Part shown: piece after piece, positions 8,016 to 27,927 of the stretch
Numbering within the stretch: position 1 is the first letter of the stretch
Layout: every line of letters starts with the position of its first letter
IMG/VR virus record: IMGVR_UViG_3300043464_001446
Coordinates: 1-43,569 of that record
Length of the DNA stretch: 43,569 nucleotides
Reading direction: 5' to 3' (one strand)
Source of the DNA: a virus
Translations under genes and position numbers: made by a program
The notes under the pieces: model-generated
What the model saw: only the letters and a program-made list of their open reading frames with translations
What the model was told of the DNA's origin: nothing
Databases searched by the model: none

Positions 8016-8447
8016 ATGAAGAAGGCTCTCGTCCTTGCCGGCGTTCTTGTTGGTGGGCTTGCGTTCGCGCAGCTTGCCCTCAACGTCGACATCTTCAACG
8101 CCCGTCCGGTGCTGTTCTCGCAGCCGATCCACATCGGCCCCGCGCTCGGCCCGAACCGGGTGTTCCCGTCGTCTACGTCGCGCGTCACGCGACTGCTGCG
8201 CGCGGACTACACCATCGACTTCGCGTCCGCGACTATCACCTGCGTCGACTCGGCGGCCCAGACCCTCACGGGCGCTCGCACTGGCGACATCTGCCTCGTG
8301 TCGCCTCCGGCCGGTTCGACGGCCAACACCAGCTTCACCTGCCGCGTCAACGCGGCGAACCAGGTGACCGTCCGCTACTGCCCTGCCGGCACGGCGGCTG
8401 ACCCCGCGTCGGGCTCGTACAACGTGCTCGTTCTCTCCAACCAGTAA
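8016..8447 (+). CDS. Exported small beta protein, possible capsid decoration
   Basis: 143 residues from ATG 8016, with TGGAG seven bases ahead. Residues 1-18 are a textbook Sec signal peptide (MKKALVLAGVLVGGLAFA, cleavage before Q19), which is unexpected for a gene next to the capsid gene. The mature part is short beta-type sequence with four cysteines (TITCVDS, GDICLVS, FTCRVN, VRYCPAG), an even number that would suit two disulfides. Position suggests head decoration or a fibre; the signal suggests the periplasm. I do not recognise a family. Confidence 0.8.
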   Translation: MKKALVLAGVLVGGLAFAQLALNVDIFNARPVLFSQPIHIGPALGPNRVFPSSTSRVTRLLRADYTIDFASATITCVDSAAQTLTGARTGDICLVSPPAGSTANTSFTCRVNAANQVTVRYCPAGTAADPASGSYNVLVLSNQ

Positions 8448-8454
8448 GGACATC

Positions 8455-8985
8455 ATGAGCGACCCCAAGAAGACTGAAGCTAAGCCGGCCCCCCAGCCGG
8501 AAGTGCAGACTCGGCAGGACGAGACGGCAGCCATCGCGGCTGCGGTCGCGCAGAAGACGCTGGAGGCGGTGCTCCCGTCCCTCATCGCCGGCCTCCGGGC
8601 CGGGCAGGCCCCCGCGCCTGTTCAGAAGCGTGCAGGTCCGTCGGCGCGTCGATGCGACGTGTGCGGTTTCCCGACGAAGGACGGGAAGGAAACCTGCGCC
8701 GAGCACGAAGCTGTCGTGGCGTACCCGACCAAGTACCCCGAGTGGGGCGACTGGTTCACGGGCATCGTCATCAACGGCGTCAAGGTGCTCAGCAACCACG
8801 AGTCGCACTCGGTGCTTGTCCCCAAGGGCACGGCAGACACGGTGCGGCTCATGGTGCAAGAGTGGGAGCGGTCGGAGCGCATCATGCGCACCGGGCGGGA
8901 GCGCCAGAACCGGCGCGGCTCCGGCACTGTCGGCAATGGCGGGGCCAGCGTCGACACCAACCCCAACCCGCTGCACTGGACGTAA
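8455..8985 (+). CDS. Unknown protein with a zinc-binding motif
   Basis: 176 residues, cytoplasmic type. The N-terminal 60 residues are charged and alanine-rich, then C67-x2-C70 and C81-x2-H84 (RRCDVCGF and ETCAEH) form a likely zinc site. The following part (YPEWGDWFTGIVINGVKVLS) is more globular, ending in a disordered R/G/N-rich tail. It lies between head and tail-connector genes, so a minor virion role is possible, but this is inference from position. Confidence 0.75.
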   Translation: MSDPKKTEAKPAPQPEVQTRQDETAAIAAAVAQKTLEAVLPSLIAGLRAGQAPAPVQKRAGPSARRCDVCGFPTKDGKETCAEHEAVVAYPTKYPEWGDWFTGIVINGVKVLSNHESHSVLVPKGTADTVRLMVQEWERSERIMRTGRERQNRRGSGTVGNGGASVDTNPNPLHWT

Positions 8986-8988
8986 GCC

Positions 8989-9672
8989 ATGGGTGTCCTG
9001 ACTCGCGGTGAAATCGTGGCGCAAGGCATGGCAACCGCCGGGCGCGACGACTTGACAGTGGAGGCCCGTACTTGGCTCCAGAACTGGCTGAACGCGGTTG
9101 CGGCTTCGTCCGACTGGCAGGTCCTTCGCCGCGAGTCTCAGGTCACCCTCAACGCACAGCAGATCGACGTGGGCGCCGGTTCGGGGGGCATTCTGGAGCG
9201 CATCCTCCGAATCGGTGACGAGATGTGGTGGTTCACGGCGGACCGGAACAACCGGGGCCGCATCAACGTCCGCGACCAGAACGCGGCCCCCATCGACCGC
9301 ATCCAGCCAACCAGCATCACAGGAAGTCCGGCGTCGGTTCGCATTCTGAAGCCGTCCGCCGGGGTCGCTCGGCTCAGCTTCGAGCCGGCGCCGGACCGCA
9401 GTTACTTGCTGTACCTCAACTACCAGGTGCAGCCGTCGAACATGGCCGCCGACGCCGACGTTCCGTGGTATGAGAACGACGAGACGATGATTCAGGCCGT
9501 CGCCTTCAAGACGCACGAGTACGCCGACGGCAAGGACGCGCCGACGACGCAGGCGGCCCAGCAGGTTCTGAGCGGCCTGCTCAACGCCGACCGGTACCGC
9601 TACACCATCGCGGCCGGCCAAAATGACGTGATTTACAAAGATCCCAAGACGTTCCCACGGAGCCGCAGGTGA
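8989..9672 (+). CDS. Head-to-tail adaptor protein
   Basis: 227 residues placed directly before the tail hub gene and coupled to it by a GTGA overlap. The pattern of an N-terminal helix pair (ARTWLQNWLNAVAASSDWQV), beta strands with LLYLNYQVQPSNM, then helices with ENDETMIQAVAFKTHEYADG fits the P22 gp4/T7 gp11-like adaptor group that binds the portal and starts the short tail. The match is by pattern and position, not by a single diagnostic residue. Confidence 0.65.
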   Translation: MGVLTRGEIVAQGMATAGRDDLTVEARTWLQNWLNAVAASSDWQVLRRESQVTLNAQQIDVGAGSGGILERILRIGDEMWWFTADRNNRGRINVRDQNAAPIDRIQPTSITGSPASVRILKPSAGVARLSFEPAPDRSYLLYLNYQVQPSNMAADADVPWYENDETMIQAVAFKTHEYADGKDAPTTQAAQQVLSGLLNADRYRYTIAAGQNDVIYKDPKTFPRSRR

Positions 9673-12095
9673 TTCGTCGACTGCCCGTGCCCATGCTTGG
9701 CGGCGTGAACCTGTGGGCCGACCCGACCCAGATTCGCGACGACCAGCTCGCCTACGCGAAGAACCTGATGCCCGTCGAGCCTGGCGTCGTCGGGACTCGC
9801 CCGGCCATGAAGTGGGCCCGGAGCGTCCTGCTGAACCCCCTGCTGGCGCCGTACATCCCGGTGCGGGCTGCGTTCAGCCCCGTCGGACCCAACTTCGCCA
9901 TCATCCTGCACGTCAACGGGCAGACGCTTCTCGTCGGAATCGACGAGAACAACTCGAACAGCCTCGTCCTCGGTACCTCTGACACCCCCATTCCGGCGTC
10001 ACTGGCGCAGTGGGACGGTGATACCTACGCCTTCACGGGCCAGTCGCCCGGCGCTCGGCTCGCTTTCGCTGTCAACGCCGCCGGCTACGTGCTGGAGGCC
10101 CTCAACTTCGGGACGGGCAATGGAGATTTCAAGCCGACTGGCGCAGCGGTTGTACGAGATCGCTTCGTGTACTGGGGGTTCGAGGCTGGCGACGGTGGCC
10201 GCTCGGTGCTGTTTGCGGACCGTGGGTTTCCTCTTCAGATTGGCAACTCTGCTGTTGCAAGTGGGCGTACGCTTCCTGTAGCCGGCATCAGCCAGACGCC
10301 CATCACACACTGCGGCGAAATCAACACGCAGAGCACGGGCAGCCCGAATCAGTCCGTCGTCGCCGTCTGGACACGGGACAACATGTGGATGCTGCTCGGC
10401 GAGCCCGGCGAGACTGGCGACGGACTCACGCCCGAGAGCATCATCGGCACGCTCCAGCAGAACCTGCTCCCCGTCGCCGCCGGCTGCGTGTCAGGGGCGA
10501 CTGTTGTGCAGACGCCTTATGGCACGCTGTGGACCGGGCCTGACGACGTGTGGTTCATGCCCTTCGGCAGCCTGCCCATCCGGGTCGGCACGAACATCCG
10601 GCCAGCCCTGGAAGCGACGCCTCCCGCTGTCCAGTGGAAGTGGCACGCGGAGTACGACTCCTCGAAGGGCCACTACCGCCTGGCCATCTTCGGGCCCGGA
10701 ACCGGCCCGACGGAGTTCTCAGGCTGCGATCACCACTGGATTCTGGATCTGTCGCAGGGGCCGCCGCGCAACGCCGACGAGGCCCGCTGGTTCGGACCGC
10801 AGGAGTACAAGCAGTCTGTGTCCGACTCGCGCTTCAACGGGACGCACTGCCTCCTGCGCGACATCGGCGCGAACGGGGACCGCAGCCTGTACGGCATGTC
10901 GTGGGCGTCGGAGTCTGTCGGGGGCGGGAGCATCTCCGGCCTGTTCCTGACCCTGCTCGACGCTGACGACAGCATCGACACCGTAGCCCCGATGTTGGAC
11001 CGTGTCCCCCGTGCCGGCTCGTCGGAGTACTTCCTCGGCGACGAGATCGTGCCCTACGACGAGGCGGCCGGTGAGTTCCGTCCCTACGTGTGGAAGGTCA
11101 CGGACGCAGGCATCACCGACTCGGGGCCCAGCCCCCTGTTCAACGACGGGAACATCTCGCCCAGAGTCGACGGCGGTGTGACGTGGGAGCCGAAAGAGAC
11201 TGCCGGACTGACGCCGGCCGTCATGTTCATCCCCAGAAGCTGGTATCCCGAGGCCAACGGCATCCGGGCAGAACTCTTGACGAAGGAGTACGCGCTCGGC
11301 GACCCGATGGTGGACAAGCTCATCGACGGCTCCGAACTCGGCTACTGGACGGACAAGACGAACCGCCTGTCGTACCGGTTCCTCACCGACGTGTCGGAGC
11401 GGACGCGGGTCATCCAGGCTCCGGCGGACCAGCTTGGCATCGCCGGCTTCGAGAACGTCGCGAACCCGAAGCCGCCCCTCCTTCGAGGGCAGCGGGTCTG
11501 GAAGACGCGGCTCCTGCCTGCGGCCGGCAGCCGGCGCAGCGTCGCCAAGACCATCCAGCTTCGTATCGCACAGGACAACGTTTTCATCGTTGACGACAGC
11601 AACGACCGTATCGTTGTCGGCGAGGACAGCGCGGACGCCATCGTCGTGTCGGTCCCGCACGGAGAGTACACGTACCTCACCTTGCTGACGACCGTGGCGG
11701 CCGCGTTGGAGTCGGCCTTCGCGGCCGGCTGGCAATTTGTCACGCCGCTCATCGGACTCGGAAGCCTTGAGGGCCTCGCCGCCACTGGCGCGACCAGCAC
11801 CTTCCAAATCTACTTCCAGCGTGTCGGTCCCGGTGCGTCTTCGTCCAACACGGCAGTCACCAACGATGACTTGCAGAAGTGCGCCCGACTGTTCCAGCTT
11901 CTCGGGTTCGATCCCAACAACGCCCCGGACTGGGGCACTGGCATCGGGGTCGGCTTCATCACGATTCAGGGCGACACGACGGAGCCGTTCACGTTCACGT
12001 TCGGTCGCATCTCCACGTACAAGCTGAACTCGTCTCGCATTCAACTCTCTGGGCTGAACGTTCGCGTCCGCCCGTTCGGCAGGAGGCCCATGTGA
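9669..12095 (+). CDS. Tail hub / nozzle protein
   Basis: 808 residues from GTG 9669. The start, with LGGVNLWADPTQIRDDQLAY and GVVGTRPAMKW, matches the beta-propeller tail nozzle proteins of short-tailed phages (P22 gp10/T7 gp12-like), which begin with a conserved GG-N-x-x-DP-I segment followed by a R/P motif. Repeated beta strands fill the rest. It would extend the adaptor and hold the fibres and plug. The stretch coding for residues 155-205 (about 10130-10280) uses noticeably more T- and A-ending codons than the rest, perhaps a recombined patch. Confidence 0.75.
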   Translation: MIRRLPVPMLGGVNLWADPTQIRDDQLAYAKNLMPVEPGVVGTRPAMKWARSVLLNPLLAPYIPVRAAFSPVGPNFAIILHVNGQTLLVGIDENNSNSLVLGTSDTPIPASLAQWDGDTYAFTGQSPGARLAFAVNAAGYVLEALNFGTGNGDFKPTGAAVVRDRFVYWGFEAGDGGRSVLFADRGFPLQIGNSAVASGRTLPVAGISQTPITHCGEINTQSTGSPNQSVVAVWTRDNMWMLLGEPGETGDGLTPESIIGTLQQNLLPVAAGCVSGATVVQTPYGTLWTGPDDVWFMPFGSLPIRVGTNIRPALEATPPAVQWKWHAEYDSSKGHYRLAIFGPGTGPTEFSGCDHHWILDLSQGPPRNADEARWFGPQEYKQSVSDSRFNGTHCLLRDIGANGDRSLYGMSWASESVGGGSISGLFLTLLDADDSIDTVAPMLDRVPRAGSSEYFLGDEIVPYDEAAGEFRPYVWKVTDAGITDSGPSPLFNDGNISPRVDGGVTWEPKETAGLTPAVMFIPRSWYPEANGIRAELLTKEYALGDPMVDKLIDGSELGYWTDKTNRLSYRFLTDVSERTRVIQAPADQLGIAGFENVANPKPPLLRGQRVWKTRLLPAAGSRRSVAKTIQLRIAQDNVFIVDDSNDRIVVGEDSADAIVVSVPHGEYTYLTLLTTVAAALESAFAAGWQFVTPLIGLGSLEGLAATGATSTFQIYFQRVGPGASSSNTAVTNDDLQKCARLFQLLGFDPNNAPDWGTGIGVGFITIQGDTTEPFTFTFGRISTYKLNSSRIQLSGLNVRVRPFGRRPM

Positions 12096-12649
12096 AGAAT
12101 CGACTCATCATTGCGGCGGGGTGCTGCATCGCCCTGGCGGCGCTTGCAGGTCCCATCAAGACGTGGCAGGCGGGGGAGGTCATCACCGCCAACGACATCA
12201 ACGCCAACTTCCAGCACATCCACAACCTGATGGTCGGCGGGCACGGTGCGCGCCTCGTCAATGCGGACGTGAACGCGAACGCCGGAATCGCCCACAGCAA
12301 GCTGGCGACGCCGGTCCTGCTCCCGAAGATGGCGGCGCTCATGGCGAACACATGCAACACCGTCGGTGCCTGCTCAATGACCTTCAGCCAAGGATTCTCG
12401 AACGTCGAGGCCCTGTCGACGACCGGGCTGTACAGGTTCACGTTCAGCGTGACCCGCCCGAACAACAGCTATTCCGTCTTCGTACAGCCAGGGATCGCCG
12501 TCGGCGCGATTCCGGTGTGTCGCCTGACGGATGCGCAGACCGCGTTTTTTGAGATTCAGTGCAAGGTGTCGTCCTCGGCCACGAGCATGAGCACCATGAC
12601 GAACACGGCCGTTCGCACTTCTGTCGCCGTCCTCGACGACAACCCGTAA
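12092..12649 (+). CDS. Exported fibre-like protein
   Basis: 185 residues from GTG 12092, overlapping the nozzle stop (GTGA) behind AGGAGG. Residues 1-19 form a signal peptide (VKNRLIIAAGCCIALAALA, probable cleavage before G20). The mature start (WQAGEVITANDINANFQHIH, then NADVNANAGIAHSKL) is a module often seen at the base of phage fibres and decoration proteins. The mature part holds four cysteines. This pairing of a fibre module with a signal peptide is unusual. Position after the nozzle gene suggests a tail-associated protein. Confidence 0.8.
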   Translation: MKNRLIIAAGCCIALAALAGPIKTWQAGEVITANDINANFQHIHNLMVGGHGARLVNADVNANAGIAHSKLATPVLLPKMAALMANTCNTVGACSMTFSQGFSNVEALSTTGLYRFTFSVTRPNNSYSVFVQPGIAVGAIPVCRLTDAQTAFFEIQCKVSSSATSMSTMTNTAVRTSVAVLDDNP

Positions 12650-12661
12650 GGAGCATCAGCC

Positions 12662-13570
12662 ATGTCCTACCAAATCTACGCTGACCAACTGGCTGCCATC
12701 AGGGCTAAAATTAACTCTATGCCCGGCAGAGACGCATGGGAACGGCTCAACGCATTCGTTGCAGCTAATCCAGATGACCCACTTTCTGCGTCTGTGCGTA
12801 AGCACGGGGCCGACAGGGTTATCGGAACTCTGGGTACAGGCGAGGCCGGCCTCAAAGATCCCAACCGTGTGGGTGCCCATGAGTGGATTTCGACAGCGTC
12901 CGACGTTCTGGGCATCAAGGATTACGACCAGCAAAAGGCGGAAGAGAAGGCGAAAGCTGCCGGTCCGACGCAGGAAGACCAAGAGCGCGCCGCCCTGACG
13001 AAGTGGATCACCGATTTCACCACGGAGATGAGCCGCGACGTGGGTCCGGGCGATCCGATGTTCGACAGCCTCCAGCGCCTCGGGGCGTCGAGGGCGTCGA
13101 TGAATGTCGGGCAGTCGGGCGTGCGAGTGGGCCGAGGCGGCCTCGGCGAACTAGCAGTTCAGCAGGGCGCGATGAACGCGACTCAGCCCTACGTCATGGG
13201 GCGGAAGCAGATGGCCCAGCAGGGCCTCGGGATGCTCGACCAGCGGGAGCGGGGCATCGAGCAGCTTCGGCAGGGCGCGCAGACCCTGGAGATGAACCGC
13301 ATCGCCCTGCAGAACCAGATCGACATGCAGAAGTACGGGCAGGAAGCAGACGCGGCGGGCGGCGTTGGCGGAACGATCGGCGGCGTTCTGGGCGGTGTCG
13401 TCGGTGGGGTTGCCACCATCGCGACAGGTGGCGCGGCGGCTCCTATGATTCCGGGCCTCATCGCGGGCGGAAGCTCCCTCGGCGCCGGCATCGGGCAATC
13501 GACGGTCCGTAGGCCGTCTCTTCGGAGTCCGCGTCCGTACGGCAGCTTCGGCGGCGGAGGGTACACGTAA
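12662..13570 (+). CDS. Internal virion / ejection protein candidate
   Basis: 302 residues. The first two thirds are helical and charged with many glutamines (QQGLGMLDQRERGIEQLRQG), and residues 235-285 are a glycine- and alanine-rich hydrophobic stretch (GGVLGGVVGGVATIATGGAA) that could enter a membrane. It is the first of three genes in the usual position of ejection proteins, and its stop overlaps the next start (TAATG). The first 250 bases are less GC-rich than their surroundings. No enzymatic motif was found. Confidence 0.65.
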   Translation: MSYQIYADQLAAIRAKINSMPGRDAWERLNAFVAANPDDPLSASVRKHGADRVIGTLGTGEAGLKDPNRVGAHEWISTASDVLGIKDYDQQKAEEKAKAAGPTQEDQERAALTKWITDFTTEMSRDVGPGDPMFDSLQRLGASRASMNVGQSGVRVGRGGLGELAVQQGAMNATQPYVMGRKQMAQQGLGMLDQRERGIEQLRQGAQTLEMNRIALQNQIDMQKYGQEADAAGGVGGTIGGVLGGVVGGVATIATGGAAAPMIPGLIAGGSSLGAGIGQSTVRRPSLRSPRPYGSFGGGGYT

Positions 13571-15003
13571 TGCCCACGCGGATCACAGACCTCGTGACGG
13601 GCGGCTTCGGCACGCTCGGCCAAGGTGTCGGGCAGGGCGTCGAGGGCTACCTGACCCAACGAGACTTCGACCAGCTCATGAAGGCGAACCAGGGCGCGGG
13701 GCAGCCCCAGCCCCAAGGCGGAGATCCCCTTGTCGAGCGCATCCTGTCTATGGCGCGGCAAGGCCTGAGCCCGCAGGATGTCGCCGAGATGCTCCGCAAG
13801 GAGCGCGGCGCGGCCCCAGCCATCAACGTGCCCGGCCAGAGGCAGGGGCAGGTTGTCCAGAACGCCGTGCCGTTGGGCCAGAACGCGCCCCCGAGCCAGT
13901 TCGGCGGCCTCAGCGCCCCGCCCCCGCAGGCGCAGCCCCAGATGCAGGCGGCCCCGCAGCCAGCGCCGGCCCCGTCAGAGTTCACCGTCGGCCAGACATC
14001 GCCGGGACTGGAGGCCGTCTTCGCGGCGGGGGATGCCTCACGCGGTCAGCCTCGCTCGCCGGGCACTGTCCCTCGTGACCAGACCCCAATCCCATACGCC
14101 GAGTCCCCTCCTCCGCAGCCCGGCCGGCCACAGAACCGTGTCCAGCAGGCGAATCCGGCCATGAGTCCGGCGCCCATGGCCGGATCTGGGGGCGGGCAGG
14201 CCAACGCGCTCGGGATTCAGGGCCAGATCACCCCCCGGAACTTCGCCTTGGCGCAGTTTCTGGCTCAGCAGCAGCGCGCCCAGCAGGAAACGGCGGCCCG
14301 AGGGCAGGCTGCCCGCCTCGAAGCGGCGTCCCGCGTCGCGGCGTCGAGCCAGACGGCGGCCGGAAGCTCGGACCGGGCGGCGATCAACGCCCTCGCTCGC
14401 CAAGAACTCGAAGAATTCAAGGCCGAGGCGAAGGCAAACGTGACGAACGGCCGGCTGGCGCAGAAAGTCCAGCAGTTCGACACCCAGAACCAGACGAACA
14501 TCTGGAAGGCGTTCCTGCAACTGCAAGCGGCCCAGGTCCGCGCAGGCGCGACGCGCGACGCGGCAGGTATCCGGGCCAACGCCAAGGGGGGCGGCGGCGC
14601 GAAGGAGGCCCAGAAGCTGCTCGAAACCATCGCCAAGGGGCGTCAGCGGTTCCTCATCACCAACGCCAAGAACCGGGGCCGCAGCCCGGATATGGACCGC
14701 CAGCTCGACGAGAGCGAAGCGGCCCTGAAAGCCATCGAAGAGGTGGCTGCCGGCCTCGCCATCGAGGGGGGTAGCGAGGAAGTCATCGAGCCCGCGCAGC
14801 CGGGCCCGTTCGGGGGCCCGTTCCTGGGCACGCCGCCCAAGACGGAGAAGAAGCCGCCGAAGGCGACGCTGACGCCCCCTGCCGGTCCGGGTGGAGGGTC
14901 CGCCCAACCGTCGGCCGGCAAGACTGTCGTCAAGACACAGACCAATCCGCAGACGGGCAAGCGCCGTCGAGTGTACAGTGACGGTACTACTGAGGAGTTC
15001 TGA
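13570..15003 (+). CDS. Second internal virion / ejection protein candidate, low complexity
   Basis: 477 residues, very rich in Q, A, P and G. Residues 35-150 are disordered, about 210-340 form long alanine/glutamine-rich helices (LAQFLAQQQRAQQETAARGQ), and the tail is proline- and lysine-rich. It ends with a TGATG overlap into the giant next gene. The composition and place match the disordered ejection proteins of short-tailed phages, which leave the capsid with the DNA. Function is inferred from these features only. Confidence 0.6.
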   Translation: MPTRITDLVTGGFGTLGQGVGQGVEGYLTQRDFDQLMKANQGAGQPQPQGGDPLVERILSMARQGLSPQDVAEMLRKERGAAPAINVPGQRQGQVVQNAVPLGQNAPPSQFGGLSAPPPQAQPQMQAAPQPAPAPSEFTVGQTSPGLEAVFAAGDASRGQPRSPGTVPRDQTPIPYAESPPPQPGRPQNRVQQANPAMSPAPMAGSGGGQANALGIQGQITPRNFALAQFLAQQQRAQQETAARGQAARLEAASRVAASSQTAAGSSDRAAINALARQELEEFKAEAKANVTNGRLAQKVQQFDTQNQTNIWKAFLQLQAAQVRAGATRDAAGIRANAKGGGGAKEAQKLLETIAKGRQRFLITNAKNRGRSPDMDRQLDESEAALKAIEEVAAGLAIEGGSEEVIEPAQPGPFGGPFLGTPPKTEKKPPKATLTPPAGPGGGSAQPSAGKTVVKTQTNPQTGKRRRVYSDGTTEEF

Positions 15004-18000: not shown

Positions 18001-19826
18001 GGCAGCTTCGGGCACTCCGGCCCGTCATGGACCCGCTGACCCTCATGTCCGCGTCGGCGTCGCGTCAGCAGTCGCTGCTCATGCGTGCCCGCGCCCTTGA
18101 GACGCTCCGCGAAGGCGGGCTCCTGAAAACCCGTGCCCAGCTTGAGCAGACGATGCCGTCGTTCCAGGACGAGGGCTGGAAGCAGTTGCCCGAGAGCGAG
18201 GAACTGTACGGCAAGTACTCAAAGCGAGTCGGCCCACTGGAGACGGACCAGTTTGGGAACCTGATGTCACGAGAAGAGGAGTGGTTCGTTCACCCCGATG
18301 CCTACAAGTCGGCGACGGAGTTCGACGAGAGCCTGCGCGGCTTCAAGAACCTCGTGGCAAGCCTGTCCCAGCACGGCATCTACAAGGCGTACAACGTCAA
18401 GAAGCTCGGCGAGACGATGGCAAACCCGGCGACGTGGGGCTTGCAGGTCTTCGCCAACATGACGAACATCGCCCTCAAGTCGGGCGTGTCGCCCCTCGCC
18501 CTGCTGAAGTCCGGGCAGTACACGCAGGCGTGGCGGCAGTGGCAGGCGTACCGTGCCGCCCCATACAAGGCGGGAGCGCCGGGCGCCCTCACCGATGCGG
18601 ACTGGATTCGCCGGGGCATTGAGGTCGGCACCGTCGGCTCGGACCAGTTCGGGGCCGAACTCAAGCCGATGGCAGATGCGATGATCAAGGCCAGCCTGGA
18701 GTCGCGCACCTTCGACGGCCTCGGTGGTGGCTTCCTGGGCTTCCTCAAGAAGGGCGCGCGCTTCACCCAGGAGATGTACGCGGGCATTGACTCCATCGCC
18801 AAGCACGGGACGTGGCTGACCCTGATGAAGGACGCCGGCATGGACTTCAAGACCGGCGCCGTCACGGACCTCGCCAAGGCTGACGCCTTCATCAACGGCA
18901 GCCGCCTCCGCCAAGCCGCCTTCGGCACCCGCATCGACTTGTCCGGCCTGTCGCCCCAGCAGATCGGCGACCTCGTACAGAAGGAAGCCGCATGGCGAGT
19001 CAACCGAAGCTTCGCCATGCCGGACCGCCCGGCAGTCGTGGGTGAAGCGGCCGGCCTCGTCAGCACCGCCGGGGTGGGCATGGTCAGCAACGCCTACGCC
19101 CGCATCGGCATGGAGGAGGCGAGGACGTGGGCCATGCTGCCGTACCGCATGGCGTCCGAGCCCGGCGTCGGCGCCGCGACGCTGGCGTGGGGCACGGTCC
19201 TCCTCGGCATGGGGGCGGCGCTTCAGGCCCGCCGCCGTGCGCAGGGGCTCACCGACGAGCAGGTGGACAAGTCCTTCAAGGCCCTGCCCACGAACCTCAC
19301 CGCGTACCGCCCGGCGACCCTCGGCATGTTCGAGTTCGGCGACAAGGGCGAGGTGATGTACCTCAACACGGAGCGGCTCTTTGAGCCCCTCCGCTGGGCC
19401 GCGAAGGACTACCTCGCCCGTCCGCTGGAGGAGCAGGCGATGGGCGATTCTCGCGGGCAGCTCCTCGCTCGCATGGCGTACAATGCCAGCGTCGGCACCC
19501 TCACGGGCACCCTGGCCGAGCCCGCCGCCGACAACCTCGCCCGCTCCGCCGGCCTCCAGTTGTACGAGCGGAGCGTCAAGCCTGAACAGCCGTCGTGGAC
19601 CAACGTCCCCAAGGCCCTGTACGAGTGGATGTCCCCGCCAGTCCTCGACGCCGCGCTGCGCTCGTACCAGCTCGCGAACCGCCCGCAGAACCCCGTCCCA
19701 TACTCGCAGTCCCTCATGCCGCTCATGTCGGCCGGCGCATTCAGCGTCGGCGGGAATCCCGCGAACCAAGCCTCGCGCATGGATTTCCTCGACCGACAGG
19801 AGCAGAAGAACCCTTCAAGGAGATGA
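15003..19826 (+). CDS. Giant internal virion (ejection) protein
   Basis: 1607 residues, the largest gene. It opens with three tandem hexads (GWVDDE, GWVDDG, GWVDEP) at residues 8-25, similar in style to acidic tryptophan repeats seen at the start of some other phage ejection proteins. Residues 35-270 include hydrophobic segments (LPLYLIDAPKSAAKLGIAAR). A proline-rich linker lies at about 615-670, a long helical region follows, and near 1390-1410 there is another hydrophobic stretch (GAATLAWGTVLLGMGAALQA). I see no lytic transglycosylase or RNA polymerase motif. It probably forms the channel across the cell envelope with the two preceding proteins. Confidence 0.7.
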   Translation: MATPGNDGWVDDEGWVDDGGWVDEPATPAPAPAPQAAGPVDYSQYMPAPQETTWTPQQMDAIAPTTPPTQGPMSVAPRFVTNEERLAALTTGLPGGADYRTGPDGKGPVGLGEQAEAAMGIVGSLQQEYIAPPLRAAQKFMREGGSPISGIPGAVERAVGAVAGPDVATAERALTEGILSLPLGPPSEYLTTPEQMRRAKAVADLPPNLGMGDRPVLSGALQSGGEAFAYLPLYLIDAPKSAAKLGIAARGAIAGFFAELADPRREANALRGAVGGAVLGKGLELGFRGGAAAMSRVAREVEAIRTWKIDGLPFGEWAAKQGTVAVVPSTEVKALLDAAPVGDIRAGAKASFMEARRGPHGGIDMRPVQVTPEGKKVGPEAKVDPNATPVQRRSRTPVVAESPEVAAELEALGAPVVRPGKAREMILNPADEGDVLLKEGGSYRTAFDEDGTLRLDALPEGDFLVGRMSETGPVEFRPVKLRNLQIESLRRRDLVVVDTPEGPRFGWDRTLREALPDGTRTNPDERLVVPINPAEKIPNSLTAPIVVGPKQYRLVTSTTEFNDILARRDDLLEAERRAALDAADAAVAVQAQAAGVPVVETPVGPKVAINGTMGGPPPQPPPPGVTPSTASAAPTPVMVGGNGNALPPGAPPTPAPPMPGGNPTGGVIAAVKRAGFGLLDAFIGPTMRGKRGVLTQRQALYAADSAARFKAADVVKNRQGDLIVATWNDHAKWLKSIADKNGGGQQGFAIAKKKLDEARVDLDAALRTGSQDLSGWRQKHPEAAFEMDNFVADWQKGSQEAQAELRRLGWLDEPDIPAPKGLENFTNGLIDDRAYYAQLYLAQMGGPGELSKLVKAKTAEYKSIVDDALQDLELSGPKDWRALSPDEKLARATEAVDRFLGDPDAINKTIVGGAKKSAAGKDALKGKRAGQLPIYAETFNEWAKGQRPAVVDAANRYLRKDITEQQFEAFLKKAGANLAPEDAKFLRAMQEELSESLRPWQLRALRPVMDPLTLMSASASRQQSLLMRARALETLREGGLLKTRAQLEQTMPSFQDEGWKQLPESEELYGKYSKRVGPLETDQFGNLMSREEEWFVHPDAYKSATEFDESLRGFKNLVASLSQHGIYKAYNVKKLGETMANPATWGLQVFANMTNIALKSGVSPLALLKSGQYTQAWRQWQAYRAAPYKAGAPGALTDADWIRRGIEVGTVGSDQFGAELKPMADAMIKASLESRTFDGLGGGFLGFLKKGARFTQEMYAGIDSIAKHGTWLTLMKDAGMDFKTGAVTDLAKADAFINGSRLRQAAFGTRIDLSGLSPQQIGDLVQKEAAWRVNRSFAMPDRPAVVGEAAGLVSTAGVGMVSNAYARIGMEEARTWAMLPYRMASEPGVGAATLAWGTVLLGMGAALQARRRAQGLTDEQVDKSFKALPTNLTAYRPATLGMFEFGDKGEVMYLNTERLFEPLRWAAKDYLARPLEEQAMGDSRGQLLARMAYNASVGTLTGTLAEPAADNLARSAGLQLYERSVKPEQPSWTNVPKALYEWMSPPVLDAALRSYQLANRPQNPVPYSQSLMPLMSAGAFSVGGNPANQASRMDFLDRQEQKNPSRR

Positions 19827-19828
19827 CC

Positions 19829-20179
19829 ATGAAGCGATTCATCCTCGTAACTCTCGCATTCGCATCCGTTGCCCTTGGGGCGGAGTTCCTTCGTGGAACT
19901 CTCTCCGGCACGGGCACGCAGACCCTCAACGTCGGCCCTGGCTCGTCCCGGCTCGCCCTTCAATGCACGACCAACGTCCGGTACAAGCTGAGCCGGGCGG
20001 ACGCCACAGACGCCGGCAACCTCGTCACGGCCAGCGACGCCCTCATCGCCACCGGCGACCCGTACATCATCGACAAGACGAACGCCTATTCCCTGCTGAA
20101 CGTGGCCCACAGTGACATCGCCGCCGACGGCGGCGGCGGGTCGGCCATCTCTTGCTCCGTCTTCGTCAGGAACCCGTAA
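19829..20179 (+). CDS. Exported small beta protein
   Basis: 116 residues. I chose ATG 19829, six bases after AAGGAG, over ATG 19823, which overlaps the previous stop but touches the ribosome site. Residues 1-18 are a Sec signal peptide (MKRFILVTLAFASVALGA). The mature part is short, beta-rich and carries two cysteines (LQCTTN near the front, ISCSVF near the end), enough for one disulfide. It is followed after one base by another exported protein. No family was recognised. Confidence 0.78.
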   Translation: MKRFILVTLAFASVALGAEFLRGTLSGTGTQTLNVGPGSSRLALQCTTNVRYKLSRADATDAGNLVTASDALIATGDPYIIDKTNAYSLLNVAHSDIAADGGGGSAISCSVFVRNP

Positions 20180-20180
20180 C

Positions 20181-21551
20181 ATGACTGCCCTCGTACTTGC
20201 CCTGCTCGGGCAGCTCGGGGGGCCGGTGCCCCCGCAGCTTCTGTGGGACGAGAACGCAGGCTGCTCCCGGACGGGCGGCCGGTGTGGTGTACTTCGGAAC
20301 GGCCGGCCCACGGCCAACTTCGCCTTCTTCGAGTTCGCCCCGTCCAACGGCGCGGGCATGGGCTCCGCGTGCGCTTGCACGACGCCGACGGGCGCGAAGG
20401 GCGAGACGCTGACGTTCACCCGTACAGGCAACGCGACGTGCTCGCGTTCCGGCCTCGCGACGACGGGGATTCAGAACGGCGACCTCGTGACGTGCGCCGC
20501 CAACCAACCCCGCGTGGAGCCGAGCGGTGGAGTGCTGGGCCTGCGGGTTGAGGGGGCGCGGACGAACGAGATTCTACGCTCTCAGGAAATCGACAACGCG
20601 GCTTGGACAAGCGGCGCAGTGGGTGTCGCCGCTCCGACCGTCACCGCGAACGCCGCGACAGCCCCTGACGGAACGGTAACGGCCGAGCGTCTTCAGGTTC
20701 CGTTGACGACGGCCGCCCAGTATTCGTACAGGCTCCAGACGGGTGCGGCCGCCTCTCAACACACAGCCAGCATCTACGTGCGCGGCAACGGCACAAGCGG
20801 CACGATGCACCTGTGGGCAGGCACCACGCCGAACTCGTGCGTCCTGTGCTCCTACGTTTCTGGTTCGTGGTCGCGCTGCTCGACGACAACGCCCGGCAGC
20901 GCGACCTATGGAATCGGTTTTGGCAACGACTCGACCAACGCCGTCTGCGTGGCGGCAGGCGCGGCGCTTTCGGCGCTCGATGTGTTCGTCTGGCAGGGAC
21001 AGGTAGAGAGTTCGGCCGCCTACGCCACCTCGCCAATCCCCACCGTCGCGAGCGCGGTGACGCGGAACGCGGAGGCGGCCGACTTCGTACTGGCGTCTGC
21101 ATTCGCGCCGACCTCCGGCCTTAGCGTTGCGTCGACACAGCAAGTGGCCACCGGCTCGGTGTGGGTGGCTGGCGGCGGGGCGCTGTCGCCGATTCTGACG
21201 ACTGGCGCAGCAGGCGCAGCCATCGGAGCAACCTACTGGTGGCCCTATGTCGGCGGCTCGTTCGTGAACATCGCGGCCGACTCTGGTGGCGTCGTGTCTG
21301 CGGGGCTCGCCACCTACAATCCAAACCTCGCGCTCTCCTTCGGAACGACCGACAGGTTCTCGACGAGCCACACCGGTAGTGCCATTCGCGTCTGTCAGTC
21401 CGGTACGTGCGCGACGAGCGGGGCGAGCACCTTCGGCACTCCGTCGTTCACCCGACTCAAGGTGTTTCCTGCGACTGGGCTCGCATCGAGCCAGACCAGT
21501 TCCATCCTGTCGCGCGTCTGTTTCGACCCCTCGCCATCAAGGTGTGAGTGA
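20181..21551 (+). CDS. Exported receptor-binding or fibre protein with carbohydrate-binding-like module
   Basis: 456 residues from ATG 20181. The start (MTALVLALLGQLGG) is hydrophobic but lacks a basic residue, so it is a weak signal peptide. The segment GVLGLRVEGARTNEILRSQE, followed by AWTSGAVGVAAPTVTANAAT and APDGTVTAERL, is the well-known start of lectin-like modules in phage fibres and particle proteins. Fourteen cysteines, an even number, suggest disulfides. Its stop overlaps the next start. It may bind host surface sugars. Confidence 0.75.
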   Translation: MTALVLALLGQLGGPVPPQLLWDENAGCSRTGGRCGVLRNGRPTANFAFFEFAPSNGAGMGSACACTTPTGAKGETLTFTRTGNATCSRSGLATTGIQNGDLVTCAANQPRVEPSGGVLGLRVEGARTNEILRSQEIDNAAWTSGAVGVAAPTVTANAATAPDGTVTAERLQVPLTTAAQYSYRLQTGAAASQHTASIYVRGNGTSGTMHLWAGTTPNSCVLCSYVSGSWSRCSTTTPGSATYGIGFGNDSTNAVCVAAGAALSALDVFVWQGQVESSAAYATSPIPTVASAVTRNAEAADFVLASAFAPTSGLSVASTQQVATGSVWVAGGGALSPILTTGAAGAAIGATYWWPYVGGSFVNIAADSGGVVSAGLATYNPNLALSFGTTDRFSTSHTGSAIRVCQSGTCATSGASTFGTPSFTRLKVFPATGLASSQTSSILSRVCFDPSPSRCE

Positions 21552-22300
21552 TGAACTCCAAACTCCGAGCACTCGTCGCCAGCGTCGGCCTCTTCATCGT
21601 CGGTGGCGTCAGCTACACCGTTTTCATTCGCACCCCTCCCGGCCAGCCCATCACCAACCTCCGCGACGCGGGCCTCTTCTCCGAGCGCACCGACAGGTTC
21701 GTGCTGGCGTGCCCGGAGAAAATCACCCTCGCGACGCGGAACTACCTCCGCAACAACGGCTACGGCACGTTCGCCGTCGGCAGCATTCACCGAGTGGCGC
21801 GGGTTGTCATCGAGCACACCCTGCCCGACGGCGGGCGCGAGCTGGTCAACCCGTCCCTCGACGTGTTCGCGGTCGAGGACGCGGGTGACGAGGAGGACGA
21901 GACGGACGACTCGTTGCAGTTCCGCACCGACGACTGCTTCCGGCTGGAGTGCAACGACGACAGCGACGCGGGCATCCGCGAGCTGAACTGGCGCCCCGAC
22001 GGCGGCGCGCGGCACCCGTTCCCCGACGGCGGGCCTCGCCCCTGGTGCAACGTCGCGACGCGGCGCGGGCGCATCACCCCGCCGTGTGTCATCCCTGACT
22101 GCTGGACGCTGCCCGACGGCGGATGGAATGACGACGCGGTGGTGGATTGTCGCGGGACGGGGCCGTTCGGCGTGCAGCCGGGTGGGGCTCCTCGTTGGCG
22201 CGGCTGCAACACGACGCCTGCGCAGTTCGCGACGGGTACACAGTGCGTGCCTGTGGAGTGCGGCGTCGTCGCGGGCGACGGCGTCGAGGTGCTCCGATGA
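21551..22300 (+). CDS. Membrane-anchored cysteine-rich PDGG protein
   Basis: 249 residues from ATG 21551 (GTG 21548 just before it is also possible). Residues 7-26 form one membrane helix (ALVASVGLFIVGGVSYTVFI) after a basic start, so the rest should face the periplasm. That part has ten cysteines and four PDGG motifs separated by acidic and proline-rich stretches. This style is common in Myxococcota exported proteins, but I know no function. It overlaps the next small gene through ATGA. Confidence 0.75.
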   Translation: MNSKLRALVASVGLFIVGGVSYTVFIRTPPGQPITNLRDAGLFSERTDRFVLACPEKITLATRNYLRNNGYGTFAVGSIHRVARVVIEHTLPDGGRELVNPSLDVFAVEDAGDEEDETDDSLQFRTDDCFRLECNDDSDAGIRELNWRPDGGARHPFPDGGPRPWCNVATRRGRITPPCVIPDCWTLPDGGWNDDAVVDCRGTGPFGVQPGGAPRWRGCNTTPAQFATGTQCVPVECGVVAGDGVEVLR

Positions 22301-22437
22301 GGCTGGTCGAAGTCGTCGAGGCGGTCGGCGGCTTCGTGGTGACGTGGGCCGTGGCAACCCTCCTTCAGTTGGGGTCGTGCAATGAGTGCAGAGCAGCGAC
22401 CCCGGAGCGGTCACCTGCGGCGCGTACTTCTCGGTAG
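22297..22437 (+). CDS. Small lipoprotein-like peptide
   Basis: 46 residues, starting in an ATGA overlap with the preceding stop. A hydrophobic stretch at residues 9-25 ends in a lipobox-like L25-G26-S27-C28, with a short R/P-rich tail. A lipid-anchored outer-membrane spanin subunit is one option, and the place in a lysis region supports this. It overlaps the next small gene by 56 bases in another frame. Confidence 0.5.
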   Translation: MRLVEVVEAVGGFVVTWAVATLLQLGSCNECRAATPERSPAARTSR

Positions 22438-22543
22438 CGCCTTCGGCTTGGCGACTGCCATCATCTGCCCGCAGTTGCCCGAGGAGGCGCAGATGCCCTG
22501 CCGATTCATGCTGGCCCTCATTCACGCCTGGGTGAACACATGA
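22382..22543 (+). CDS. Small membrane peptide overlapping the previous gene
   Basis: 53 residues from ATG 22382 in a different frame from the 22297 gene. Basic start (RPRSGHLRR), then hydrophobic residues 15-29 (VLLGSAFGLATAIIC) and a short tail. Its stop overlaps the ATG of the next gene (ATGA at 22540), so it is probably translated. The out-of-frame overlap of two small membrane-type genes resembles spanin pairs, though the sizes are smaller than usual. Confidence 0.45.
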   Translation: MSAEQRPRSGHLRRVLLGSAFGLATAIICPQLPEEAQMPCRFMLALIHAWVNT

Positions 22544-23034
22544 GCAAGAGACACATCGTCAGGGCACCGCAGACGGACCGGTACGCCATCGATGTCCCGT
22601 GTAAGCCGGCGGACCTGAACTGCTCGCCGATCGTCCTCGCTGGCCGCTCGTCCAGCCTCATCGTTGAGGCCGGTGCGACGGCGACGCTGGGTGGCTTCAC
22701 TGTGACGCGAGATACGGAATCCATCGTCACGTCGACTTCGCCGTTCACCATCACGCCGAAGCACGACGGTACGTACCTCGTCGTCTTCAGTTCCGTCCTC
22801 GACATCGGCACGGCCTTTGCGGATCGCATAATTGCGTACACCGTTCTCGTCAATGGAGTGTCGGCGGCGTCCATCCCCAAGGCCGCGCGAGTCGGGGGCC
22901 TGCACACGGAACAGATCATCGCCAACCTGCGCATCACGGCCGGACAGCCCGTGACGTTTCAGGTGACCAACTCAGCCGGTGGCAACGTGACGTTCGCCGC
23001 CTTTCAGATCGACTTCATCAACGTGGGGCCGTGA
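22540..23034 (+). CDS. C1q/TNF-like beta-jelly-roll protein
   Basis: 164 residues without a signal peptide. The second half (FTITPKHDGTYLVVFSSVLD, then AYTVLVNGVSAASIP and AFQIDFINV) has the strand pattern of C1q-like domains used as trimeric knobs of phage fibres and decoration proteins. It begins in an ATGA overlap and ends two bases before the lysin gene. It probably trimerises; the receptor is unknown. Confidence 0.6.
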   Translation: MSKRHIVRAPQTDRYAIDVPCKPADLNCSPIVLAGRSSSLIVEAGATATLGGFTVTRDTESIVTSTSPFTITPKHDGTYLVVFSSVLDIGTAFADRIIAYTVLVNGVSAASIPKAARVGGLHTEQIIANLRITAGQPVTFQVTNSAGGNVTFAAFQIDFINVGP

Positions 23035-23035
23035 C

Positions 23036-23581
23036 ATGAGCAACTGGAAGAACGTCGCAGCGTGGGAGCCCATCCTCGTCCCCGGCCGTGAGAAGCCGTG
23101 GGCAGAAAGGCTGGACGCAGTCCTCGATGACCTCGATGTCGTCAGGGCGATCCGGTACGACCCGCAGCCGAAGACGAAGTGCAACATCTACGTCACCGAC
23201 GTGATCCGCAACATGCGGGTGCCGGCGCCGGAGCACTGGATGACGAGCGAGGGCGTGCCGGCCAAGATGGGCCAAGGCATTGAGATGTCCGCGAACCGCC
23301 TGGCCCCGTGGTTCCGCCTGCACGGACCCCGGTACGGGTGGTGGAGCGCGGACGAAGCCACGGCCCGGAACGCGGCGGAGCGCGGGCACCTCGTCGTCGT
23401 GTCGTGGCAGAGCGACGGCCGGCGCGAGCCGGGCCACTGCGCCATCGTCCTCGGGGAACTCGACGGCAAGGCGCGCATCACGCAGGCCGGCGGCTTCAAC
23501 AGCCGGGAATGTCCGCTCTCGGCCGGCTTCGGGAACCGGGGTCCGCTGGAGTTCTGGATTCAGGCGGAGCGAGTCGAATGA
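23036..23581 (+). CDS. Endolysin-like cysteine peptidase/amidase (NlpC/CHAP type)
   Basis: 181 residues without a signal peptide. C49 in KCNIYVTDV sits at the start of a helix, H134 is in EPGHCAIVLGE, and a polar residue in ITQAGGFNS (Q150 or N155) could complete the triad: this is the papain-like amidase pattern of NlpC/CHAP-type cell wall enzymes. It should cut peptide bonds of peptidoglycan. With no signal peptide it would need the holins at 25847-26460 to reach the wall. It overlaps the next gene through ATGA. Confidence 0.7.
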   Translation: MSNWKNVAAWEPILVPGREKPWAERLDAVLDDLDVVRAIRYDPQPKTKCNIYVTDVIRNMRVPAPEHWMTSEGVPAKMGQGIEMSANRLAPWFRLHGPRYGWWSADEATARNAAERGHLVVVSWQSDGRREPGHCAIVLGELDGKARITQAGGFNSRECPLSAGFGNRGPLEFWIQAERVE

Positions 23582-23916
23582 AAGAGGCCCTCATCGAGTT
23601 GCCGGACCAGCCGGTCAACCCCATCAGCACCATCCTCTGGGCAGCCCGCGTCGAGGCCTGGGCAGGCATCGGCGTCCTCGTGGAAAACACGGGCTCCGAG
23701 ACGGTCACGGTCCGCATCGAGACAAGGCTGGCCGACACGGGCGACTACGCCCCCCGGCCCGTCGACGACCTCGTGGACATTGCCGCCGGTGCGGCCAAGC
23801 AGTTCGACGCCGACTCGTCCCTGTCCATGTGGTTTGCCCTCGTCGGCACAGCAACCGGAGCCGGCTCGACTGCCAAGGTGTCCTTGCTTCTCTCTCGCGG
23901 AGGTCGTCCATGGTGA
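23578..23916 (+). CDS. Unknown small beta-rich protein
   Basis: 112 residues from ATG 23578 inside an ATGA overlap with the lysin stop. Sequence such as WAGIGVLVENTGSETVTVRI and SSLSMWFALVGTATGAGS suggests a beta sandwich of the sort found in phage particle proteins. It has neither cysteines nor a signal peptide, in contrast to the flanking exported genes. It overlaps the following gene by seven bases. Confidence 0.7.
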   Translation: MKEALIELPDQPVNPISTILWAARVEAWAGIGVLVENTGSETVTVRIETRLADTGDYAPRPVDDLVDIAAGAAKQFDADSSLSMWFALVGTATGAGSTAKVSLLLSRGGRPW

Positions 23917-24455
23917 TGCTCGTGATGGCTGTGCTGGCGCAGCCCCTCAACCTCAACGCCGGCCCCATCAAGTCCCTCGCCTGCGATGGCGGCCTCGTCT
24001 GCTCCGTCTCGGGCAGCAAGGCGACCATCATCAACACCGTGACGGGGGGCGGCGGGGGCAGTGGGGGCGCCCCTGTCGATGGCGGGTACGTCGTCTGGCA
24101 GTCGGTCGGCTCGACGAACGAGCGCGTGCTGACGGCAGGGACGAACGTCACGCTGGACACCTCGACGCCGGGGCAGCTCATCGTCAACGCCTCGGGCGGC
24201 GGCGGTGGCTCTGTCAACACGGCATCTGGCTCGGCTTCGTTTGACGGTGGCTCGCTCGACGCGCGCACGACCGTCACGGCGGCTTGGGTCACGCCTTCGA
24301 GCGTCATCGTCTGCACGCCCACGGGCGAGGAGGCCAGCGTTGAGGGCCTCGTCACCACAGTGCTCTCTCAAGGCTCGGGTTCTTTCGTCGTTCGCGCGGA
24401 GCCGCGCCACGGCTCACACTGGGGCGCCATGCCCTTCGTCTGCATCGGGAACTAG
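23910..24455 (+). CDS. Exported glycine-rich fibre-like protein
   Basis: 181 residues from ATG 23910 with GCGGAGG six bases ahead. The first 17 residues are hydrophobic (MVMLVMAVLAQPLNLNA) and may be a signal peptide despite the missing basic residue; AGPIK follows, exactly as after the leader of the 12092 gene. Then come a G-rich linker, a fibre-type segment (NERVLTAGTNVTLDTSTPGQ), a second G-rich linker and a C-terminal beta domain. Four cysteines. The fibre motif suggests attachment or decoration. Confidence 0.7.
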   Translation: MVMLVMAVLAQPLNLNAGPIKSLACDGGLVCSVSGSKATIINTVTGGGGGSGGAPVDGGYVVWQSVGSTNERVLTAGTNVTLDTSTPGQLIVNASGGGGGSVNTASGSASFDGGSLDARTTVTAAWVTPSSVIVCTPTGEEASVEGLVTTVLSQGSGSFVVRAEPRHGSHWGAMPFVCIGN

Positions 24456-24457
24456 CC

Positions 24458-25837
24458 ATGCGCATCGCACTCCTCGCCGCACTCCTCGCAAGCTCGGCCT
24501 TCGCCGACGTAACCGTCAACGGCACCGTTCGCGTCGTCGCCGACGGCGGGCTGCAAATCACCGACGAGTTTGGCGACGCGCTCGTCTTCACTGACGAGCG
24601 AATGGACGTTGGACGGGACACGCCGCTGTTCACCGACCGATTCGTCGGCACGGCGGTAGCGTCGAACAACAAATGGATGCAAAGCCTCCTCACGATGACC
24701 GCCCCTGTCAGCGCGGGCGCAATCAACCTCAACGCAGGAGCCTCGGTGCTAGCCAACACCTACGCGACGCTGGCCACCACGCAAAAATACCGCGGCTACG
24801 TCGACGCGGCGCTCGTCGTGCAGGTTCGCGCAAGGCCGGTCAACCTGCCGCAGACGAACGCGGTTGCGGAGATAGGGTTGGGCAACGCCACCGCCAACAC
24901 AGCCCCCACTGACGGCGCGTTTTTCCGGTGGACGAGCAGCGGCGGCTTCGAGTGCGTCATCAGTCGTGGCGGCGTCGAGACGTCGGTGGCCATGACTGCG
25001 CCGACGGCGAACGTCTACTCGATTTTCAGCATCAAAACGAAGGGCGACCGACAGATTTGTCGGTACATCACCCCAAGCACAGGCGCAGACGTGCGCGCAG
25101 TGGTCACCCTCGATGCCGCCGCTCCGAGCGCGTTCAACGAATCGCCGGGCGGGTTGATTCGTCTCTACAACGGCGCGACCTCACCAGCCCTTGCGCCACA
25201 ACTTATCGTCGGTCTTTTCGAGCTGTCCAAAAAGGTTCTCGACGAGGCTCGACCGCCCGAGGTTACGGCGGCCATCGCCGGTCAGTCGGCCGTCACCACC
25301 CCCACGACTGGCGCGCAGGCGGCCAACAACGCCAACAGCGCCGCGCCAGCGAGCGTGGTGCTCAATAACACTGCGGCTGGATACTCGACGCTCGGAGGTC
25401 GGTGGCAGTTCCTGGCGGTGGCGGGTTCCGTAAACGACCTCATCTTGTTCGGTTATCAGGTGCCAACGTCGTACCGGTTCGTTCTGACGGGCATCTCAAT
25501 TTCCACCTGCAACACTGTTCTCGCGGTGGCCACGACGCCAACCGCGTTTGAGTGGAGCCTCGGGGTCAACTCCACCAACGTCTCGCTGGCCACGGCGGAC
25601 GCGACGGGAGCCTCGCCGACGACCGCCCCGCGACGCCTCAGTCTCGGCAAACAGTCTTTGCCCGTCGGCGCGGCACCGGAGCAATGCGCCCCCGACCTAA
25701 TCCGGACTTTTAGCTCTCCGTTGACGGTGGAGTCCGGGCGGTTCCTGCAAATCATCGTGCAAGTGCCCGTCGGCACCGCAACCGCCACGGAGATTTTCCG
25801 AGGCACCGTCACTGTTAACGGCTATTTCGAGCAGTAA
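24458..25837 (+). CDS. Exported fibre-like protein with lectin-type region
   Basis: 459 residues with a clear signal peptide (MRIALLAALLASSAFA, cleavage before D17). The middle (DGAFFRWTSSGGFECVISRG) resembles concanavalin/LamG-type sandwiches, with residues 295-459 forming a second beta domain (FVLTGISISTC, FLQIIVQVPVGT). Four cysteines. The gene uses more A and T than its neighbours. Such two-domain beta proteins are typical of fibre tips, but export is not. Confidence 0.72.
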   Translation: MRIALLAALLASSAFADVTVNGTVRVVADGGLQITDEFGDALVFTDERMDVGRDTPLFTDRFVGTAVASNNKWMQSLLTMTAPVSAGAINLNAGASVLANTYATLATTQKYRGYVDAALVVQVRARPVNLPQTNAVAEIGLGNATANTAPTDGAFFRWTSSGGFECVISRGGVETSVAMTAPTANVYSIFSIKTKGDRQICRYITPSTGADVRAVVTLDAAAPSAFNESPGGLIRLYNGATSPALAPQLIVGLFELSKKVLDEARPPEVTAAIAGQSAVTTPTTGAQAANNANSAAPASVVLNNTAAGYSTLGGRWQFLAVAGSVNDLILFGYQVPTSYRFVLTGISISTCNTVLAVATTPTAFEWSLGVNSTNVSLATADATGASPTTAPRRLSLGKQSLPVGAAPEQCAPDLIRTFSSPLTVESGRFLQIIVQVPVGTATATEIFRGTVTVNGYFEQ

Positions 25838-27544: not shown

Positions 27545-27927
27545 CGGCCGCTCACCAGTCGGTCCAAGTACCAGATCGCCTTCCGCAGTGACTCGGTGCC
27601 GCCCTTGTGCTGCTCGCGCCACACGTACTTCAGGGCGTTCCCCTTGCAGTACGCCCTGAATCCGTCAGGCCCCAACGCCGCCTCGATGGCGTCGATGCAC
27701 TCCACTGCGCCTTGGTTATAGTGGGACGGGTGATTCACGTTGTCCTTCACCGGCAGCTCCTTGTCGTACCCGCCCATCGCCTGCGTCAGCTCCGTCAGCT
27801 CCCGGACCGCCTTTGCCGAGGGACGCTCAGGCGACGTGCGCACTGGCTCCGGTCGCGTGCAGACTTCGCAAGTCTCGTGCTCGTTGCGGCATCGGCAGTC
27901 GAGATCCTCGGCGCGGAACCACCTCAC
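27541..27927 (-). CDS. DUF3310 protein with N-terminal zinc site
   Basis: 128 residues from GTG 27927, overlapping the polymerase stop (GTGA). The C-terminal half (NVNHPSHYNQGAVECIDAIE, then KYVWREQHKGGTESLRKAIW) is the DUF3310 domain, sometimes labelled nucleotide kinase-like in phages but without proven activity. The N-terminus has C11, C13, C20 and C23 (CRCRNEHETCEVC), a likely zinc-binding addition. It lies between polymerase and phosphoesterase in the replication operon. Confidence 0.82.
   Translation of the reverse strand: MRWFRAEDLDCRCRNEHETCEVCTRPEPVRTSPERPSAKAVRELTELTQAMGGYDKELPVKDNVNHPSHYNQGAVECIDAIEAALGPDGFRAYCKGNALKYVWREQHKGGTESLRKAIWYLDRLVSGR

Follow-up and report, generated by a model that had tools for sequence, protein, structure and literature searches.

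Exported proteins with paired cysteines encoded in the virion region of a podovirus-type genome

The proteins of tailed-phage particles are, to our knowledge, taken to be cytoplasmic. What, then, are seven proteins with signal peptides, short leaders or a hydrophobic stretch doing in the virion region of a phage? The question is raised by IMGVR_UViG_3300043464_001446, a 43.6-kb virus contig analysed over its whole length (the window; 43,569 nt, GC 66%), whose genome is podovirus-type. An earlier note, made from the sequence alone, proposed that these proteins fold with disulfides in the periplasm and then either coat particles at lysis or stay on the host surface to block other phages. Sequence comparisons support export with disulfide bonding well. 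The balance leans modestly towards the proteins being surface appendages that leave the cytoplasm by Sec, form their disulfides in the periplasm and attach to particles at lysis. Genes are named here by their first position:

8016..8447, plus strand: exported small lectin-like protein; signal peptide at residues 1-18; Cys 76, 93, 109 and 122; adjoins the major capsid gene
12092..12649, plus strand: exported fibre-like protein of 185 aa, so read from position, fibre match and fold; its start overlaps the stop of the nozzle-type gene
19829..20179, plus strand: exported small protein; signal peptide, 2 Cys; lies between the large ejection-type gene and 20181
20181..21551, plus strand: head-spike-fibre/tail-type protein; short uncharged leader, 14 Cys; PHROG 5939 (tail), E 9e-17
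21551..22300, plus strand: putative membrane-anchored protein rich in cysteine (10 Cys beyond the anchor); keeps its place after 20181 in relatives
23910..24455, plus strand: short-leader protein; uncharged leader ending AQ, 4 Cys
24458..25837, plus strand: exported protein; canonical signal peptide, 4 Cys

Leaders of the seven proteins

Leaders were scored by our own rule-based scorer and read by eye. The scorer called 11 of 12 listed exported Escherichia coli proteins (FepA was missed), one of 43 T7 genes (gp14, weakly) and none of 14 Mx8 virion genes. Within the window it called only members of the set and a 53-aa membrane protein (22382), and no gene of at least 80 aa outside the set scores as having a cleavable leader. 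The 53-aa protein (22382-22543, plus strand) is conserved, has two cysteines and is encoded close to lysis-type genes.

The leaders are MKKALVLAGVLVGGLAFA before Q in 8016, VKNRLIIAAGCCIALAALA before G in 12092, MKRFILVTLAFASVALG(A) in 19829 and MRIALLAALLASSAFA before D in 24458. Each of the four combines a charged n-region with a hydrophobic core and an A-x-A/G site (small residues at -3 and -1), and by this anatomy they read as canonical Sec signal peptides of the signal peptidase I type. The leaders of 20181 (MTALVLALLGQ) and 23910 (MVMLVMAVLAQ) are weaker; they are uncharged, about ten residues long and end in A/G-Q. The single hydrophobic stretch of 21551 may be a membrane anchor. The division in the earlier note into four clear signal peptides, two weaker leaders and one anchor thus holds in coordinates, leader anatomy and scoring against controls.

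Two other interpretations of the leaders were rejected. They are not start-site artefacts, because a good ribosome-binding site immediately precedes most of the leaders (AGGAGG for 12092, AGGAG for 19829, GGAGG for 23910 and GGAG for 8016, with weaker sites at 20181 and 24458), and because the leaders are conserved. The scorer's lipobox call for 12092 was set aside as well, since the core is too short and the homologues are of the signal peptidase I type. Phages of Silvanigrella, Bacteroides (B40-8) and Flavobacterium (11b) encode few leader-bearing genes and no comparable set.

Conservation of the set in relatives

The comparison drew on gene calls for MW202637, MW202477 and about twenty further related viral contigs, which carry our own handles (G or L and a number). 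The earlier note had raised the prospect of the same cassette in related genomes, and the set is indeed conserved across them at fixed positions. The virion-gene order is kept in the two environmental genomes MW202637 (capsid 55% identical) and MW202477 (32%). Two of the fixed positions are set by genes that adjoin members of the set:

6620..7963, plus strand: major capsid protein (PHROG 1357); adjoins 8016
9669..12095, plus strand: nozzle-type tail gene, assigned by synteny; adjoins 12092; its MW202477 homologue is annotated as a phage stabilization protein

Every relative with a contig reaching across the site encodes a 12092 homologue immediately downstream of the nozzle-type gene, always with a leader. 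The leader calls in this family are SP1 save for the window protein (lipobox, probably false) and the MW202477 homologue (TM), both of which are signal peptides when read by eye. In the window, MW202637, G001, G003, G017, L149, L151, L153 and L155 the capsid gene is immediately followed by a gene for an exported 8016 homologue, which other relatives lack. A gene pair also recurs, a 19829-type protein with a leader and then a 20181-type protein, even behind unrelated capsid modules (G021, G022).

Across relatives the leaders diverge in sequence and length while n-region charge, core and cleavage pattern are kept. Leader types also interchange within families. In the 20181 family the short leader alternates with a charged signal peptide (L040, L021) and a lipobox (MW202637), and members of the MW202637:38170 family carry either a charged signal peptide or a short leader ahead of a conserved [AG]QG site.

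These exchanges bear on the idea that some leaders, above all in 20181 and 23910, do not direct export but serve as hydrophobic plugs that anchor the protein to a base protein of the particle, with disulfides forming after release into an oxidising medium. The short leaders lack charge and tend to alternate leucine and small residues. In RcGTA the head-spike fibre is held in its base pentamer by a Leu/Gly repeat, which makes anchoring a reasonable alternative to weigh. It is improbable nonetheless, and so is its late, extracellular route to disulfides: within one family charged signal peptides or a lipobox replace the short leaders, the A/G-Q after the core is conserved, and 8016, 12092, 19829 and 24458 carry full signal peptides whose variation in sequence and length a specific pocket would not tolerate.

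Further observations concern the makeup of the set elsewhere. The tail-end exported set also occurs on L047-L050 (G021, G022), L046 (G018) and L045 (G014), where either the capsid module is unrelated or no capsid gene was detected, so it may travel as a block. In MW202637 (L003) an exported gene at 33159-33494 (plus strand) was left out of the GenBank annotation. Freshwater springs such as Manatee Spring are a source of these phages. At least six genes with leaders are present in MW202554 (L054), a podovirus that belongs to another lineage and comes from the same spring; one is annotated as a pectin-degrading enzyme, and another, behind the nozzle-type gene, encodes a tail-collar protein.

Paired cysteines in the exported parts

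The cysteines outside the leader number 4 in 8016, 4 in 12092 (six in all, two of them within the leader), 2 in 19829, 14 in 20181, 10 in 21551, 4 in 23910 and 4 in 24458. These are the numbers first counted, and all seven are even, which has a chance of 1 in 128. In the clade, even mature counts occur in 61 of 70 leader-bearing proteins vs 59 of 176 leaderless proteins with cysteine (Fisher p 6e-15), where homologues below 70% identity were entered separately and, given their shared ancestry, are not fully independent. The odd counts arise partly from miscalled cleavage sites (window 12092, G005 12600, G008b 1425). By comparison, the ejection-type proteins 12662, 13570 and 15003 (2,386 aa) have no cysteine.

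Individual families point the same way. All 11 homologues of 12092 in the comparison have the four C-terminal cysteines in place, and ten of the 11 are 27-43% identical to the window protein. Among the ten small leader-bearing members of the 8016 family only three patterns occur: all four cysteines, 93 and 109 only (G001, G003, L062), and 76 and 122 only (MW202554). Because cysteines are lost strictly pairwise, the simplest reading is that 8016 would form the disulfides 76-122 and 93-109, which supplies predicted pairs of the kind the earlier note had in mind. None of the 17 leaderless members has these pairs. A Fisher test of leader against cysteines in this family gives p 1e-6, a value inflated because the leader-bearing members form one group in the tree (support 88/87). 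The independent evidence is the set of pairwise changes within that group.

The interpretation in the earlier note thus stands in its first part. Export and disulfide folding are strongly supported by comparison, in that divergent leaders keep their anatomy, leader types interchange within families and cysteines change in pairs.

Virion-type homology and predicted folds

The earlier note had also recognised fibre-like modules typical of phage particles, and 8016, 12092 and 20181 prove to be homologous to, or modelled as, virion modules. The domain of 8016 has a wide distribution. Unrelated phages such as L072, L075, L086, L110 and L130 encode it as a protein of about 110 aa, leaderless and cysteine-free, either immediately downstream of the capsid gene or with one gene in between. 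For 20181 the match is to the head-spike fibre of RcGTA (E 1e-22, profile positions 99-316). This head spike is a capsid decoration and a solved part of the virion that mediates binding to the host's capsular polysaccharide (PMC7296036). 12092 is laid out as a signal peptide, a fibre-head segment and a C-terminal lectin-like knob with Cys 88, 94, 143 and 157, and short repeat segments give it a match (E 9e-5) to the cyanophage P-SCSP1u fibre protein. Virion ancestry is supported by these sequence relationships for at least three modules.

Single-chain AlphaFold models of 8016 and 12092 have a mean pLDDT of 73-75, and about 90 in the domains. The modelled residues 56-143 of 8016 align with KP32gp38 (Z 8.4 over 82 residues) and the modelled C-terminal domain of 12092 (residues 78-185) with Pam1 (Z 7.4 over 67 residues). 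For both, tips of phage fibres or spikes make up nearly all of the top fold matches. In these models the two proteins resemble tailspike-tip or H-type-lectin-like domains of a sugar-binding type.

An 8016-like domain also occurs in long signal-peptide proteins, mostly without cysteine pairs, on mostly low-GC viral contigs (L061, L070, L073, L081, L087, L101, L103, L131, L133, L134).

Particle or host surface

Exported, disulfide-bonded proteins could instead stay on the infected cell and coat or bridge surface sugars late in infection. Sec leaders, the lipoprotein signal of MW202637:33494 and the anchor of 21551 all point to the envelope, the sugar-binding folds would suit masking, and there are well-known cases of phages encoding surface proteins that block infection. 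We nevertheless hold this to be unlikely, and give a similarly low weight to the roles it would entail, namely receptor masking, a block to superinfection and keeping progeny off debris. The seven proteins are interleaved with capsid and tail genes at fixed places by their presumed partners, which is unusual for exclusion genes; leaderless 8016 homologues occupy the capsid position in unrelated phages; and 20181 is related to a particle spike. The host-surface alternative is therefore weaker on both gene position and homology. Of the two fates left open by the earlier note, homologous virion modules and partner-adjacent genes lean to the particle, and the host surface is less favoured.

The same evidence speaks to a more trivial explanation, in which routine late or accessory functions, such as lysis helpers or secreted enzymes, are encoded among the virion genes by chance. 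In its favour, the membrane proteins 21551 and 22382 are near lysis-type genes. The order by the same virion genes is conserved across divergent relatives, however, and 8016, 12092 and 20181 have virion-type homology, so that we regard chance placement as very improbable.

A proposed route of assembly

We return to the proposal that the proteins are particle appendages. Those of a podovirus-type particle would be made as Sec precursors. The leader would carry them over the inner membrane and would then be cut off by signal peptidase, and the periplasmic oxidation system of the host would close the cysteine pairs and stabilise small sugar-binding knobs. A DsbA-type gene was searched for in the phage and not found, and oxidation is therefore assumed to be the host's. 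Heads and tails would meanwhile be built from leaderless proteins in the cytoplasm. Since they must assemble there, exported appendages could meet them only once the inner membrane opens; at lysis the holin would open it, and finished particles would meet the oxidised appendages, which would dock. Candidate docking sites are the capsid for 8016 and the nozzle-type tail for 12092, and 19829 and 20181 would dock as a head-spike or tail-spike pair. Leader cleavage, docking sites and lysis timing are what we infer rather than observe. For the full two-compartment scheme, in which DNA-filled heads and tails from the cytoplasm are joined on inner-membrane opening by disulfide-locked receptor- or sugar-binding appendages from the periplasm, we see the chances as evenly poised.

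Several points weigh against docking on particles. No precedent was found for a periplasmic protein docking onto a tailed phage built in the cytoplasm. One 20181 homologue carries a lipoprotein signal, which would tie the protein to a membrane. In the 8016 family leader and cysteines were probably gained together once, and as the leader probably arose once they count as one gain, not ten. The fibre match of 12092 rests on short repeats, with the best single stretch alone at 0.02, and the fold matches are middling (Z under 9).

If the proposal is true, some of the particle's parts are produced on the far side of the membrane and assembly is linked to lysis. The phage would gain disulfide-stabilised binding modules, and cytoplasmic expression of such receptor-binding proteins could yield misfolded material. 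Software for gene finding or virion-protein classification may treat such genes as secreted and drop them (compare the omission in MW202637).

Genome context

On the plus strand the window encodes a terminase large subunit (1659), an HNH endonuclease (3143), a portal (3622), a scaffold-type protein (5921), the capsid (6620), an adaptor-type protein (8989), the nozzle-type protein (9669) and ejection-type proteins (12662, 13570, 15003), followed by the tail-end set and lysis-type genes up to 26460. Beyond 26460 the minus strand carries replication genes, namely a DNA polymerase, helicases and a nuclease. The adaptor, nozzle and ejection roles are putative assignments by synteny; family searches with these window genes gave no direct match. 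No match to a single-subunit RNA polymerase gene, a mark of Autographiviridae, was obtained in the record, and the control search likewise matched nowhere. A pattern-limited search of an 84,980-genome collection with the 20181 and capsid families found no relatives. A Myxococcota host, suggested by PDGG/DAG motifs, was dropped (18 in the window vs 8.4 expected, uneven in relatives).

The HNH endonuclease (3143-3625, plus strand; PF13392, E 1e-15) sits between the terminase and portal genes. The DNA polymerase (27924-30520, minus strand) is divided into two reading frames that flank a small cysteine-rich frame (29308-29505). A small protein encoded at 8455-8985 (plus strand), with the capsid gene on one side and the adaptor gene on the other, has Cys-x2-Cys and a further Cys/His group; it is kept in nearly all relatives (the MW202637 counterpart is L003 21862-22344) and, from these residues, probably binds metal.

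Comparison with known systems

Searches of the open-access literature gave no account of tailed phages with disulfide-bonded appendages exported by Sec. Signal peptides and paired cysteines on several proteins that resemble sugar-binding virion parts suggest that such parts are completed outside the cytoplasm, unlike those of any well-studied tailed phage.

Among fibres, the T7-type fibre P-SCSP1u gp28 has a GxxLTAxDLN segment and a NADxxASAAIAxSKLA repeat in common with 12092, which likewise adjoins a nozzle-type gene. 12092 differs in being short, with a signal peptide and a cysteine-paired knob. The helix/repeat segment alone matches, and the N-terminal jelly-roll by which T7-type fibres dock to adaptor and nozzle was not recognised in 12092. 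KP32gp38, phi297 gp61, Pam1, LKA1 and the Helix agglutinin have folds like those predicted for the 8016 and 12092 domains. Unlike these tailspike C-terminal domains and H-type lectins, 8016 and 12092 are single small exported cysteine-paired proteins and not the tips of long spikes. The closest counterparts of 8016 in gene position, L072:5980-6321 and its kin in unrelated phages, have the domain in the same post-capsid place and neither leader nor cysteines.

The nearest parallels are the RcGTA head spikes and the exported phage-like fibres of Bdellovibrio. The RcGTA spike consists of a base pentamer (Rcc01079) and a fibre (Rcc01080). The fibre domain is common to Rcc01080 and 20181, both have a hydrophobic N-terminus, and 20181 also lies behind a small partner gene. 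The hydrophobic N-terminus of Rcc01080 is the Leu/Gly repeat plugged into the pentamer, whereas 20181 has 14 cysteines and belongs to a family that includes charged signal peptides and a lipobox, and its partner 19829 has a signal peptide. A profile search with the very divergent 19829 family found no solved relative, including a base protein of the Rcc01079 type. The Bdellovibrio MAT fibres carry phage-fibre modules behind a signal peptide, and 13 of 21 MATs have an S74 autoprotease/chaperone (PMC10769870). S74 (PF13884) was not found in this genome, with a positive control. The window proteins too carry phage-fibre modules behind a signal peptide; the MAT fibres differ in being encoded by a bacterium and serving predation. 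Set beside both parallels, two-compartment assembly would be the novel case.

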